Shown: one piece after another, positions 4,982-13,199 of the stretch
How the letters are laid out: each line of letters opens with the position of its first letter
Numbering within the stretch: position 1 is the stretch's first letter
Assembly (NCBI RefSeq): GCF_014651675.1
Contig: NZ_BMXI01000012.1
Location: 62,001-126,000, forward strand
Direction of reading: 5' to 3'
DNA: 64,000 nt
Origin: Roseibacillus persicicus
GTDB lineage: Bacteria; Verrucomicrobiota; Verrucomicrobiia; Verrucomicrobiales; Akkermansiaceae
Program-made: the position numbers and the translations under genes
Notes under the pieces: generated by a model
What the model saw: only the letters and a program-made list of their open reading frames with translations
The model's database searches: none
Told to the model about the DNA's origin: nothing

Positions 4982-5469
4982 TTCTCGCTCAAAGGTAGCA
5001 ACTCAATGCCAAGAATCAACCTTCCACCTCTCCAATCGGGTCCGGCGATGTAGAGCCACTTTCCATTTTTCAACGGATGAGTCGTCTTCATGACCTTTCT
5101 TTTTCCCTGCCAGAGTTCCAGATCAAGCTTAACCCCGTCAGCCTCTGCCTGACTATTGGGCTCGAAGCTGAGCAGAATCTCGTCCGACCCTTTCATCGGA
5201 GAGGACCAGTTGGTGTAACTCCTCCAAATCGGCTTCACCTCCGAACCCAGCAGACCATAATTCTTGAAGTGCAGATTCTTTAGTAGCTCCATTCGCCCGG
5301 CGTGGCCCTTGTCTGCGACCGGAACATCGGGCACGACCTCCGCCAAGTTATCATTCGTGCCGAATAAAAGCACCGTCCGCAAGCGGGCCACGGTCTCTTT
5401 ACCCGGATCCTGCGCGAATCCGACGGCGACTAGAAGAAACCAGAGCGAAAATGTAGCTACGGCTTTCAT
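4978..5469 (-). CDS. Exported protein of unknown function
   Basis: This 163-residue protein has a clear signal peptide (FSLWFLLVAVGFA, cut before QDPGKE). The mature part is about 143 residues, rich in beta-type sequence, with Trp residues (RSYTNWS, LWQGKRK, PDWRGG) and no cysteine. I do not recognise a family. It starts immediately after the stop of the anti-sigma gene and overlaps DUF1573 by 4 nt. Given the operon, a periplasmic partner of the DUF1573 protein or a sensor input for the anti-sigma factor are reasonable guesses only. Confidence 0.75.
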   Translation of the reverse strand: MKAVATFSLWFLLVAVGFAQDPGKETVARLRTVLLFGTNDNLAEVVPDVPVADKGHAGRMELLKNLHFKNYGLLGSEVKPIWRSYTNWSSPMKGSDEILLSFEPNSQAEADGVKLDLELWQGKRKVMKTTHPLKNGKWLYIAGPDWRGGRLILGIELLPLSEK

Positions 5470-6069
5470 CTAGTACACTTGAACTGAGCGTTGGGTCGAA
5501 ATCAGCTGAACCGCGCTATCGGACTCATTGAAGCTTTGTCCTCCGGCCATCAGGTCAAAGGAATCGGGAATAGGCTGCAGACCATCCAGAACGATCACAC
5601 TCGTCCCCGCCCCATCCGCATTTACGATACTTGCCGTGACTCCGCCTTCCGGCGTATAGACGACCGAGCGATTCTGTGACACGACCAACCGTTCAGGCGT
5701 AGGCGAGTTCCCCACCCGGGTGCCAGCCAGAAACGCAACCGCCATCGCCCCCACCGCTACCGGAGCCAACCACCAGCGTAACGCGTCACGCCAAGATGAA
5801 GCCGCAGGTTTCGCAGGCGGATGATCAGCTTCATCTGCATCCCGAATCGCTTGCTCCAACTTTGTCTGGAAAAAGTCGCCGTAGGGCACATCCGCAGGCT
5901 CGGCGTAAACCGCCAACAAGTCTTCCCGGACCTGAGAATGGCCAGCACGCATGGTAGCCAGCTCAGGCTCAGCTTCCAGAATGCGTTTCAACTCTTCATT
6001 CTCGCTGGCAGACAACACCTCGTCGTCCATCCACCGTATTACCAGCTCTTCTTTACGCTCCTGCTTCAT
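5470..6069 (-). CDS. Probable transmembrane anti-sigma factor
   Basis: The 199-residue protein has an N-terminal acidic helical domain (ELVIRWMDDEVLSASENEELKRIL) resembling anti-sigma domains but without the zinc ligands of the ZAS type, one membrane helix near residues 99-117 (WWLAPVAVGAMAVAFLAG), and an about 80-residue exported C-terminal part. The gene directly follows and overlaps the ECF sigma gene, the usual arrangement for a cognate anti-sigma factor. The ATG at 6069 is chosen over a GTG one codon upstream. Identity rests on context and topology more than on sequence motifs. Confidence 0.75.
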   Translation of the reverse strand: MKQERKEELVIRWMDDEVLSASENEELKRILEAEPELATMRAGHSQVREDLLAVYAEPADVPYGDFFQTKLEQAIRDADEADHPPAKPAASSWRDALRWWLAPVAVGAMAVAFLAGTRVGNSPTPERLVVSQNRSVVYTPEGGVTASIVNADGAGTSVIVLDGLQPIPDSFDLMAGGQSFNESDSAVQLISTQRSVQVY

Positions 6070-10199: not shown

Positions 10200-11741
10200 T
10201 TGAGTTACCAAGTCTTCGCCCGCAAGTATCGCCCTAGGACCTTCAAAGATGTTTTGGGTCAGGACCATGTCGTTCGCACCCTACGGAACGCCATTGAGCA
10301 GGGACGGTTGGCACATGCCTACCTGTTTGTTGGCCCCCGCGGCACGGGAAAGACCTCGACCGCCCGTATCTTCGCAAAGGCTCTCAATAGCCCAGGCGGC
10401 CCTTCCATCGACTTCGATCCCGACGATCCGGATTTGCTCGAAATCGCGGAAGGGACTTCGCTGGACGTCCTGGAGATCGATGGTGCCTCCAACAACGGGG
10501 TCGAGCAGGTTCGCCAACTGCGCGAGACCGTGCAATACGCTCCCGCCAAGTCCCCTTTCAAAATTTACTACATCGATGAGGTTCACATGCTCTCCAATGC
10601 GGCCTTCAATGCCCTCCTGAAGACTCTCGAGGAACCGCCTGCGCACGTGAAGTTCATCTTCGCAACCACCGAACCGAACAAGATCCTGCCGACCATTATC
10701 TCCCGTTGTCAGAGATTTGACCTCCGGCCCATTCCAACCGACATCATTGCCAAACAGCTGCTTCACATTGCCTCCGAAGAAGGCGTGGCACTGGACGAGT
10801 CCGCAGCTTGGGCAATTGCCAAAGGAGCGGATGGCGGGATGCGGGATGCCCAATCGATGCTGGACCAGCTGGTCGCCTTCTGCGGCGAGCAAATCAAGGA
10901 GGATGACGTTCAACACATCTTCGGCTTCACCTCAGGCGAAACGATCGCCACATTGGTGTCCTCCCTTTTCCAGAAAGACACTTCGCAGCTTCTCAATCTA
11001 CTAAACGACCTGGCGGCTTCAGGAAAAAATCTTTCCCAGCTCCTGCAAGAGCTGATCAATACCCTGCGAGCCTTACTCATTCACAAGATCGATCCCAAGG
11101 CGGGCCGCGAAGGACTTTCGGATGAGGTCTGGAACAAACTGACCGCTCTTACCGAAAAGTCTCCTGCCGACCGCCTGCTTGCACTGATGGACATCCTCTC
11201 GACCGCTGAAGCCGGAATGCGATGGGCCGCGAACAAGCAACTTCATCTCGAATTGGCATTGATACGCTCGGTGGAAGCATTGGATGAGATCCGCATCTCC
11301 GATGTCATCAAAGCATTGGAAAAAGGAGGCCTCTCCGATGACCTGCCAAGTCTTCCCACCCAGCAGGCTCCGGCTCAGGCAACCGAAGCAACACCTCAGG
11401 CCCCTTCTGAACCGGCTACAGAATCTCCCGCAGCTCCGCACGCGGAAAGCGCTACCGCAGAATCCTCCGAGGCCCAGCCCGCCGCCGCCCAGTCCGCGTC
11501 GGCCACCACCTCCGGCGAGGATGATGTCATCCTCAGCCCTATCGAGCGCCTGATGCAAGATGCGCCGGACGAACGGGAGGACGAGCCCGAACCGGAACCC
11601 GCACCATCGGCAGCCACTCAAGCTCCTCAAAAGGAAGAACCTGCTGCTGAAGCGAAACCCCAGCCACCCGCAGACGACTTCCACAACGACCCGTTAATCA
11701 AAGACGCGATCGAAGTCTTTAAGGGGAAGTTAAAAAGCTAA
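10200..11741 (+). CDS. dnaX: DNA polymerase III gamma/tau subunit
   Basis: This 513-residue clamp-loader ATPase starts at TTG, fixed by the conserved opening MSYQVFARKYRPRTF. It shows Walker A GPRGTGKTST, Walker B IYYIDEVHML, sensor 1 FATTEPNKI and the arginine finger S-R-C-Q-R-F. The Cys4 zinc module normally found between Walker A and the DVLEIDGASN motif is absent: the region reads NSPGGPSIDFDPDDPDLLEI with no Cys. After the collar domain (to about residue 370) comes an Ala/Pro/Glu-rich tail of about 120 residues with no clear tau C-terminal domain. I see no A-AAA-AAG slippery site. The exported ACP gene starts 12 nt downstream. Confidence 0.97.
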   Translation: MSYQVFARKYRPRTFKDVLGQDHVVRTLRNAIEQGRLAHAYLFVGPRGTGKTSTARIFAKALNSPGGPSIDFDPDDPDLLEIAEGTSLDVLEIDGASNNGVEQVRQLRETVQYAPAKSPFKIYYIDEVHMLSNAAFNALLKTLEEPPAHVKFIFATTEPNKILPTIISRCQRFDLRPIPTDIIAKQLLHIASEEGVALDESAAWAIAKGADGGMRDAQSMLDQLVAFCGEQIKEDDVQHIFGFTSGETIATLVSSLFQKDTSQLLNLLNDLAASGKNLSQLLQELINTLRALLIHKIDPKAGREGLSDEVWNKLTALTEKSPADRLLALMDILSTAEAGMRWAANKQLHLELALIRSVEALDEIRISDVIKALEKGGLSDDLPSLPTQQAPAQATEATPQAPSEPATESPAAPHAESATAESSEAQPAAAQSASATTSGEDDVILSPIERLMQDAPDEREDEPEPEPAPSAATQAPQKEEPAAEAKPQPPADDFHNDPLIKDAIEVFKGKLKS

Positions 11742-11753
11742 AGCTGCCATCGA

Positions 11754-12092
11754 ATGAAAAGCATTCTTCTCGCTACGGCTCTGGCCGGCACGACGATCTT
11801 CACTCTCAGCTGTCAACCGAACGGAGAAGGCAAGGTTCCGCAGCAGGTCGAAAACACCAGCGCTACCACTCTTAGGATTAAAGAGCTCATCTCTGAACTT
11901 CTCGAAGTCCCTCCCTCGCAAATTCAGCCCGGCGATTCTTTCATCGCGGACTTGGGCGCAGATTCACTCGATTTCGTCGAACTCATCATGGCTACGGAAG
12001 AGGAGTTCGGAATCACCATCCCAGATTCCGAAGCCGTTGAACTCACAACCGTCGGAGCTTTAATTGCTTACTTGAAGTCCCCAAGAACCTGA
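11754..12092 (+). CDS. Acyl carrier protein with N-terminal export signal
   Basis: A 112-residue protein. Residues 36-112 are a good ACP: acidic four-helix pattern, the phosphopantetheine site G-A-D-S-L with Ser71, helix II DFVELIMATEEEFGITIP, and TTVGALIAYL at the end. Residues 1-20 are a basic-hydrophobic segment (MKSILLATALAGTTIFTLSC) resembling a lipoprotein signal; the box T-L-S-C lacks the usual Leu at -3. No ATG, GTG or TTG lies in frame between nt 11754 and the ACP domain, so a cytoplasmic start is not available. It follows dnaX by 12 nt and is probably co-transcribed. This is unlikely to be the fatty-acid-synthesis ACP, which should be encoded elsewhere with fab genes. An exported ACP would be unusual. 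Confidence 0.8.
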   Translation: MKSILLATALAGTTIFTLSCQPNGEGKVPQQVENTSATTLRIKELISELLEVPPSQIQPGDSFIADLGADSLDFVELIMATEEEFGITIPDSEAVELTTVGALIAYLKSPRT

Positions 12093-12139: not shown

Positions 12140-12631
12140 ATGGGTGTGTCCAAGCTTGCCCTGATTCTCTTTCTTTTCCTTCCTCTTTCCGCAGCCGAAC
12201 AGAGGAAGCACCAAGCGTCAATCAGCCTCACTTACCTAAATTCTGAACAAGCAGGCCGAGCCCTTGAGCAATTGTTTGAGGGAGACCTCCGGGTGAAAAA
12301 ATCCGGCGATGCGATTATCTTGGTCTCTTCGGACGAACTCACGGCTCTGACAAAGGCCCTCTCCCTTATTTCTCGAATCGATCTCCCCCACATTTCAGTC
12401 CCCACTCACTTCTTCCAACTCGGCTTCACTGACTGCGAGCGGATAGCGGCGCAACTGGAGAAACTTCTATCAAATGAGACGGCGGAGTTTACTCTCACGC
12501 CGGACCCAAGGACCAATCGAATCTTCCTGATTGGAGACGACAATCTGAAACTGAAAGTCGAAAAATTCATCGCCGAAGCCGAAGCCGAAGCCGAAGCCGC
12601 CAATGCCAATCCAGACGAGGTGGCATCATAA
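12140..12631 (+). CDS. Small exported protein with secretin N-type domain
   Basis: A 163-residue protein with a signal peptide (LALILFLFLPLSAAE). The mature part resembles one and a half secretin N0/N1-type repeats: ISLTYLNSEQAGRALEQLF, IILVSSDELTALTKALSLISRID, then FFQLGFTDCERIAAQLEKLL and PDPRTNRIFLIGDDNLKLKVEKFI. Such domains form the periplasmic ring of GspD/PilQ, but the outer-membrane barrel is missing, so this is a stand-alone periplasmic fragment or adaptor. The C-terminus carries four Glu-Ala pairs from a GAAGCC repeat. It lies 47 nt after the ACP gene on the same strand. Function unknown. Confidence 0.7.
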   Translation: MGVSKLALILFLFLPLSAAEQRKHQASISLTYLNSEQAGRALEQLFEGDLRVKKSGDAIILVSSDELTALTKALSLISRIDLPHISVPTHFFQLGFTDCERIAAQLEKLLSNETAEFTLTPDPRTNRIFLIGDDNLKLKVEKFIAEAEAEAEAANANPDEVAS

Positions 12632-12911: not shown

Positions 12912-13199
12912 ATGAACATCGCCAAACTCATGGAACAGGCTAAAAAGCTGCAAGAAGCTCAAGCCGATCTCTCAAGCAAAACTGTCGAAGCTTCGGACCC
13001 TTCCGGAAAAGTCACCGTGGTGGCCAACGGGGCTGGCGAGATTCAATCCCTGACCATTGACCCTGCAATTGTTTCAGCCGACGACACTGAATTTCTTCAG
13101 AACCTGGTGATGAGCACCTGCAACTCCGCCCTGAAGGAGGCCCGCGAGAGTGCGGCAAAGGATATGGCAGCCAATCTCAACATTCCCGGCTTGGGCTAG
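12912..13199 (+). CDS. YbaB/EbfC-family nucleoid-associated protein
   Basis: This 95-residue protein shows the family pattern: a start helix MNIAKLMEQAKKLQEAQADL, then VEASDPSGKVTVVANGAGEIQSLTIDP and a C-terminal helix with Ala-rich repeats. YbaB binds DNA as a dimer with little sequence preference. In many bacteria ybaB lies between dnaX and recR; here it remains near dnaX (1.2 kb downstream) while recR is 12 kb away on the other strand. The 280 nt upstream (12632-12911) hold no credible gene. Confidence 0.93.
   Translation: MNIAKLMEQAKKLQEAQADLSSKTVEASDPSGKVTVVANGAGEIQSLTIDPAIVSADDTEFLQNLVMSTCNSALKEARESAAKDMAANLNIPGLG

Follow-up and report, generated by a model that had tools for sequence, protein, structure and literature searches.

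A second acyl carrier protein of Roseibacillus persicicus with a lipoprotein-type leader and a putative place in the cell envelope

Acyl carrier proteins (ACPs) are treated as internal carriers, and the cytoplasmic AcpP has no leader, unlike the protein described here. Lipoproteins of the Sec/Lgt/LspA route are the second system with which this protein can be compared. Their strict lipobox pattern is [LVI][ASTVI][GAS]C, and a looser one (after PROSITE PS00013) allows no D, E, R or K in the six residues before the cysteine, is permissive from -4 to -2 and has [AGS] directly before the cysteine. We know of no lipoprotein with an ACP as its cargo, and a literature search of titles and abstracts, which covered few subscription papers, found no ACP described as exported, periplasmic, secreted, extracellular, membrane-anchored or as a lipoprotein. 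An engineered ACP tag displayed on a cell surface keeps its fold there and can be modified at its serine, according to the accessible part of its source (PMC6344588), but it is an artificial yeast fusion, unlike the natural leader-bearing ACPs considered below.

The window, that is, the whole stretch of 64,000 nucleotides of R. persicicus DNA that was analysed, carries an ACP gene next to dnaX. The features of this region are the following (other genomes are cited by handles such as G002):

10200..11741, + strand: dnaX, DNA polymerase III gamma/tau (Pfam DNA_pol3_delta2 and gamma3; 78% identical in G002)
11754-12092, + strand: dnaX-adjacent ACP open reading frame of 112 amino acids, with leader, linker and ACP domain
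11754..11813, + strand: signal-like leader, residues 1-20, MKSILLATALAGTTIFTLSC, with the Cys20 codon at 11811-11813
11814..11861, + strand: linker, residues 21-36, without predicted structure (AlphaFold2)
11862..12089, + strand: ACP domain, residues 37-112 (PF00550 over 41-107, TIGR00517, AlphaFold2 and Foldseek)
11964..11966, + strand: Ser71 in GADSLD, the expected phosphopantetheine attachment residue (from the sequence)
12140..12631, + strand: Secretin_N-domain protein (Pfam), small and signal-like at its N-terminus
12912..13199, + strand: ybaB/ebfC, a downstream neighbour of dnaX in six of the seven relatives looked at

The open reading frame, the complete ACP domain and Ser71 in G-A-D-S-L had been noticed in the initial annotation and are borne out by the translation and by profile matches above the cut-offs. 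PF00550 matches residues 41-107 (E 3.9e-18, 65.9 bits, cut-off 20.8) and the NCBIfam equivalog TIGR00517 (acyl_carrier) scores 84.6 bits (cut-off 70.45). In the AlphaFold2 model, built from a 22-row alignment, the ACP fold is confidently predicted from roughly residue 37 onwards (94-98 in blocks of ten residues between 41 and 110), helix I is predicted at residues 37-50, and confidence over the leader and linker is low. The ten best PDB matches of this model in Foldseek are all AcpP chains (TM-score by target 0.86-0.94). Domain, fold, the serine in GADSLD, the acidic helix II and the passing of curated cut-offs are all shared with cytoplasmic AcpP, and Ser71 and the neighbouring acidic residues are intact.

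Concerning the rest of the genome, the window protein is a second ACP. An ordinary leaderless AcpP is encoded separately on contig 18 (G000:C18:61850-62062), and a frame of 3653 amino acids with three ACP domains is present on contig 19. Two matches to the phosphopantetheinyl transferase family PF01648 were found, one beside the contig-19 frame and the other on contig 1, the latter being AcpS-like and without a leader by eye.

The signal-like segment that had been read up to Cys20 passes a leader test (basic residue, hydrophobic run, no acidic residue and [GAS]-Cys at the N-terminus), which was applied to the window and a further 390 kb or so from this genome. The test is crude, at least one cytoplasmic-looking protein also passing it, and it was passed by 14 of 364 called genes versus 6 of 1131 spurious open reading frames. 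The basic n-region, the hydrophobic run and the [GAS]-Cys are shared with Sec/Lgt/LspA lipoproteins; the threonine at position -3 and the ACP cargo are the differences. The lipobox had been called imperfect, and in fact T-L-S-C falls outside the strict pattern and within the looser one. Because it departs from the strict pattern, the protein is not filed here as a lipoprotein but as a probable one. A threonine at -3 is also present in a second gene of this genome that passes the leader test (...LVTTSC).

ATG, GTG or TTG codons are found in this frame only at residues 1, 67, 79 and 107, and upstream of the ATG at 11754 the open frame extends just four codons, so that a complete leaderless ACP cannot be made from a standard start. 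Hence the earlier observation that no usable start separates leader and domain holds for codons 2 to 66. A cytoplasmic protein would then require either that the leader is unused or that translation begins at a non-standard codon, for example the ATT at codon 42, and the latter would truncate the predicted helix I. The leader has a single basic residue and the lipobox is weak, and the domain itself resembles the cytoplasmic kind (its closest PDB match by sequence is the Aquifex ACP), which are points in favour of this alternative. However, comparable or better leaders are found on ten other ACPs, as described next, and together with the lack of start codons they make a cytoplasmic protein improbable.

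The initial annotation proposed to look for the same architecture in other Verrucomicrobiota, and this search gave ten further leader-bearing ACPs. In total, leader and ACP domain are combined in 11 distinct proteins from eight genera: our own, and ten from seven other genera (G218, G279, G139, G009, G052, G640, G701, G673, G646 and G454), one of them outside the class. This number is a lower bound, as the reading covered part of the second matches to the Asp profile (see below), which occur for example in G153, G193, G197, G198, G206 and G231, and first-rank matches were examined for leaders only where the locus was fetched. The scan for leaders covered 287 fetched loci with an ACP-like frame, some of them overlapping (240 distinct stretches). 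Nine of the eleven proteins (all except those of G052 and G701) were submitted to a Pfam scan, and all nine are above the PP-binding cut-off.

When the window protein was searched against 260 genomes of its family, a match was found in 238 at 1e-10 and two matches in 12. For each of these twelve, both matches or at least the second were read. Leader and ACP are combined in our own genome, G009, G218 and G279; in G132, G133, G137, G140, G181, G184 and G185 the ACP domain lies at the C-terminal end of a membrane protein; and G276 has the mitochondrial-looking ACP described below. The leader-bearing ACP of G052 also came from the search with the window protein. A leader-bearing ACP was seen in at least 5 of the 260 family genomes, and with so few carriers it may be dispensable. 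A profile of three leader-bearing ACPs gave 41 second-rank matches in 80 further genomes of the order; every one was read, and four are leader-bearing (G640, G701, G673 and G646). Beyond the order, another 80 genomes (63 from the same class, 17 from elsewhere in the phylum) gave 43 such matches, whose loci were all fetched. One of these is leader-bearing (G454, from outside the class), and at the G360 locus no frame reached 60 amino acids. A profile of six forms with Asp at the serine position, searched against 386 genomes of the order, placed its own six members on top and, among ordinary ACPs, added one leader-bearing protein, that of G139.

Five loci from GTDB contigs that were considered as leader-form orthologues are all ordinary leaderless AcpP, four of them with a chance MKSILLAT match in the adjoining gene, and IMG/VR gave a single ACP on a viral contig, without a leader. 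As a separate observation, positions 5040-5552 of a viral contig (L036) encode an ACP domain with a C-terminal extension, and the stretch VELIMATEEEFG is common to it and the window protein. The DNA pattern [LF]GADD[LF]D, which is blind to IGADDLD, GSDDLD and YGADDLD, occurred at 33 places in 29 of 387 phylum genomes, compared with 11 for a backwards control pattern. Only two of the 30 loci that were read are ACPs, both leader-bearing (G009 and G052), and the rest are chance frames by eye.

The export or membrane tethering suggested in the initial annotation is therefore supported by recurrence, since ten further ACP-like proteins carry a lipoprotein-type leader, while the location itself is what we infer from these sequences. 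Homologues lacking the hydrophobic N-terminus, which had been named as evidence against export, do exist, but the ones examined turned out to be ordinary AcpP, the protein matched by 57 of 58 relatives.

Regarding ACP domains attached to larger membrane proteins, the fusions of genera g7 and g13 were considered as exported ACPs, two of them having been flagged by the leader scan, and were left out of the eleven because their topology is ambiguous. A membrane protein of about 235 amino acids occurs without an ACP match in 19 listed rows from 239 genomes of the order, and in several genomes of g7 and g13 (L085, L086, L087, L089, L167, L172, L193 and relatives) it has a C-terminal ACP domain, whose serine is present in some and missing from others. 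Three further observations were made by the way. L236 (G634:C268), in a frame from base 1, combines a transmembrane segment with what by eye resembles N-acetylmuramoyl-L-alanine amidase and, at the C-terminus, an ACP domain containing GADSLD. L173 (G276:C446:29220-29441), from a 9.4-Mb bin, is an ACP with a mitochondrial-looking presequence by eye and is probably eukaryotic contamination. Finally, unrelated lipoprotein-like genes of L086, L087 and L095 seem to begin with an almost identical short sequence, [KM]C[CY]FSSMK, which is perhaps a promoter or start-site element.

The eleven proteins are not uniform in their active site. The phosphopantetheine serine is kept in four (our own, G218, G279 and G139) and replaced by Asp in the other seven (G009, G052, G640, G701, G673, G646 and G454); these rows are related and cannot be read as independent counts, and the Asp forms nonetheless occupy two places in the tree. 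In contrast to the lost serine, the D-L-D-x-V-E-[ILV] of helix II is retained in the Asp forms. The comparison set consisted of 109 distinct ACP domains that have no leader and a score of at least 85; it includes Ser-bearing membrane fusions and was compared without G454. D-S-L is present in 107 of them, and the two exceptions are the membrane fusions of G181 and G185. One genus holds both types: the leader-bearing proteins of G139 (Ser) and G009 (Asp) share 56% identity over 130 amino acids, a stretch that takes in the linker. The model of the G646 Asp form is ACP-like with lower confidence (mean pLDDT 67), and the G009 Asp form, which has no attachment site, passes the TIGR00517 equivalog cut-off (82.7 versus 70.45 bits).

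Concerning the leaders, the strict lipobox pattern is present in six of the ten other leader-bearing ACPs (G218, G009, G052, G640, G701 and G646) and absent from our own and those of G279, G139, G673 and G454. The looser pattern is found in 10 of the 11 (nine of the ten others), G454 being the exception. The cysteine column is invariant across the ten aligned proteins, an alignment that does not include G454.

These data bear on what the protein could do. It had been suggested that an exported ACP might acylate surface proteins or lipids; nothing was found in support of this, and the absence of the serine from seven of the eleven proteins argues against acylation as a general function. An exported holo-ACP could still be a carrier if a cytoplasmic transferase loaded Ser71 with phosphopantetheine ahead of export and the thiol delivered an acyl or other group to an acceptor in the envelope. 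Such a role is possible where the serine is kept, as in the window protein with its intact Ser71 and surroundings, and the genome encodes the two transferase genes mentioned above. In addition, E. coli ACP displayed on yeast was labelled at its serine by added Sfp, as stated in the portion of the source available (PMC6344588), and this implies that an exported ACP can fold. Against this stand the serine losses, and no carrier partner was seen beside the window gene. Moreover, to our knowledge there is no acyl-donor supply for an ACP in the periplasm, and we consider a carrier of this kind unlikely, though the most deserving of the alternatives.

The serine losses suggest instead a docking module that would work without the cofactor, which is favoured because the proteins that have lost the cofactor site retain the partner-binding surface; this role leans on the Asp forms, and the window protein itself keeps its serine. 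The Foldseek list for the window model includes 8tvt, 9gm6 and 8zkp (titled as cysteine desulfurase-ISD11-ACP, MukBEF and MmpL5), complexes in which, we assume, the ACP is used at least partly as a bound protein partner, like the docking role proposed here. Mitochondrial ACP and other partner-bound ACPs are presumably not lipoproteins and keep their serine, unlike the leader-bearing Asp forms.

With 78 columns, the trees are weak, and they include up to ten leader-bearing ACPs, G454 not being placed. The closest leader-bearing relative of the window protein is that of G218; their alignment begins at residue 16, just ahead of the cysteine, with 46% identity over 97 amino acids. Pairwise scores of ordinary AcpPs against the window protein are equally high or higher (77.2 bits for G040 versus 68.6 for the G218 leader form). 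In the trees, our own protein and that of G218 join (89/81 without G279; 92/88 and 93/84 with it) in a group that falls outside the AcpP clade, and G279 departs from our own group once G218 is removed. G009 and G139 join (99/99) and adjoin ordinary AcpPs (84/84), and the five order-level Asp forms join (100/98), so that the best tree has the leader-bearing ACPs in three groups. The test of a single clade for the ten speaks neither for nor against it (AU p 0.41). Given such weak trees, the leader-bearing ACPs may be one old family or may have up to three origins or more.

The gene of G218 offers a possible clue to this scatter. It is located in an array on a 13.5-kb contig (G218:C19:1-13524, L194) with 27 attC-like repeat sites of 120-128 nt. 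In 25 of 26 cassettes the core sites at the two ends complement each other exactly (mean 4.2 and maximum 12 in 10,000 shuffles), as is expected if the repeats delimit integron cassettes, and the ACP gene is one cassette of the array, with its own ends matching. Several cassettes of this array encode small proteins with signal-like or membrane-like N-termini. Integrons have been reported from Verrucomicrobiota, according to the part of the source at hand (PMC8618304). No such repeats were found at the G279 locus, and in the window, for whose ACP gene an integron origin was likewise considered, no attC-like repeat copy was found between 10904 and 24158, where a single worn attC would escape detection. 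Cassette mobility may be part of the reason why the gene is so scattered.

The leader-bearing ACP beside dnaX is absent from G001, G002 and G003, all of the same genus. The gene order beside dnaX is dnaX-ybaB in G001 and G002 and dnaX-Secretin_N gene-ybaB in G003, and the search with the window protein found only the ordinary AcpP in G001 and in G003, once in each, and had no match in G002. Homologues of the Secretin_N protein occur in G003 (29%, at the same place) and in G022 (31%, on a contig other than that of its dnaX). The spacing of 12 nt behind dnaX given in the initial annotation is correct (dnaX stop at 11741, start of the frame at 11754), no terminator-like site was found between 11500 and 13300, and dnaX probably shares a transcription unit with the ACP gene. 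Reading the neighbourhoods of our own gene and of those in G218, G279, G009, G052 and G139 revealed no conserved partner gene. The large secreted proteins upstream of the Asp forms of G009 and G052 were considered as a shared partner and are not recognisably homologous (best E 0.26).

The absence from G001-G003, the sporadic distribution and the long end branches of six of the ten leader-bearing ACPs, our own included, would also suit the idea that a copy of an ACP gene recently fused by chance with a stray signal sequence and has little or no function. Nevertheless, helix II is retained despite large divergence, the frame stays open so close behind dnaX, and the grouping of our own protein with that of G218 is unexpected for an isolated accident. 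We leave only a slim chance to this explanation.

The best reading is a real, patchily distributed ACP that would be anchored in the envelope, its export being deduced from the leader. It is fairly probable that the window protein is a second ACP with a Sec-type leader, envelope-anchored and probably a lipoprotein, that docks a partner in the envelope through helix II. The precursor would be exported by Sec, followed by lipid attachment and cleavage at Cys20, or else the leader would be retained as an anchor. The protein would then be held either in the outer membrane or on the periplasmic face of the inner membrane, and a flexible linker would carry its ACP domain. There the four-helix domain would fold in the periplasm, and its acidic helix-II face would dock the envelope partner.

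For the phylum as a whole, a broader scenario can be put forward tentatively, with somewhat less than even confidence: an ACP may have been moved into the envelope as a lipoprotein, either more than once or early, with Ser forms that could perform thiol or acyl chemistry outside the cytoplasm, Asp forms that are free of cofactor and keep the docking surface, and a gene that is also integron-borne. An Asp form that passes an acyl carrier equivalog cut-off is a trap for annotation, because the name acyl carrier protein hides both the export and the loss of the cofactor. Moreover, a set of ACPs that are sent to the envelope and occur naturally with either Ser or Asp would make it possible to study how the ACP fold docks independently of what it carries.
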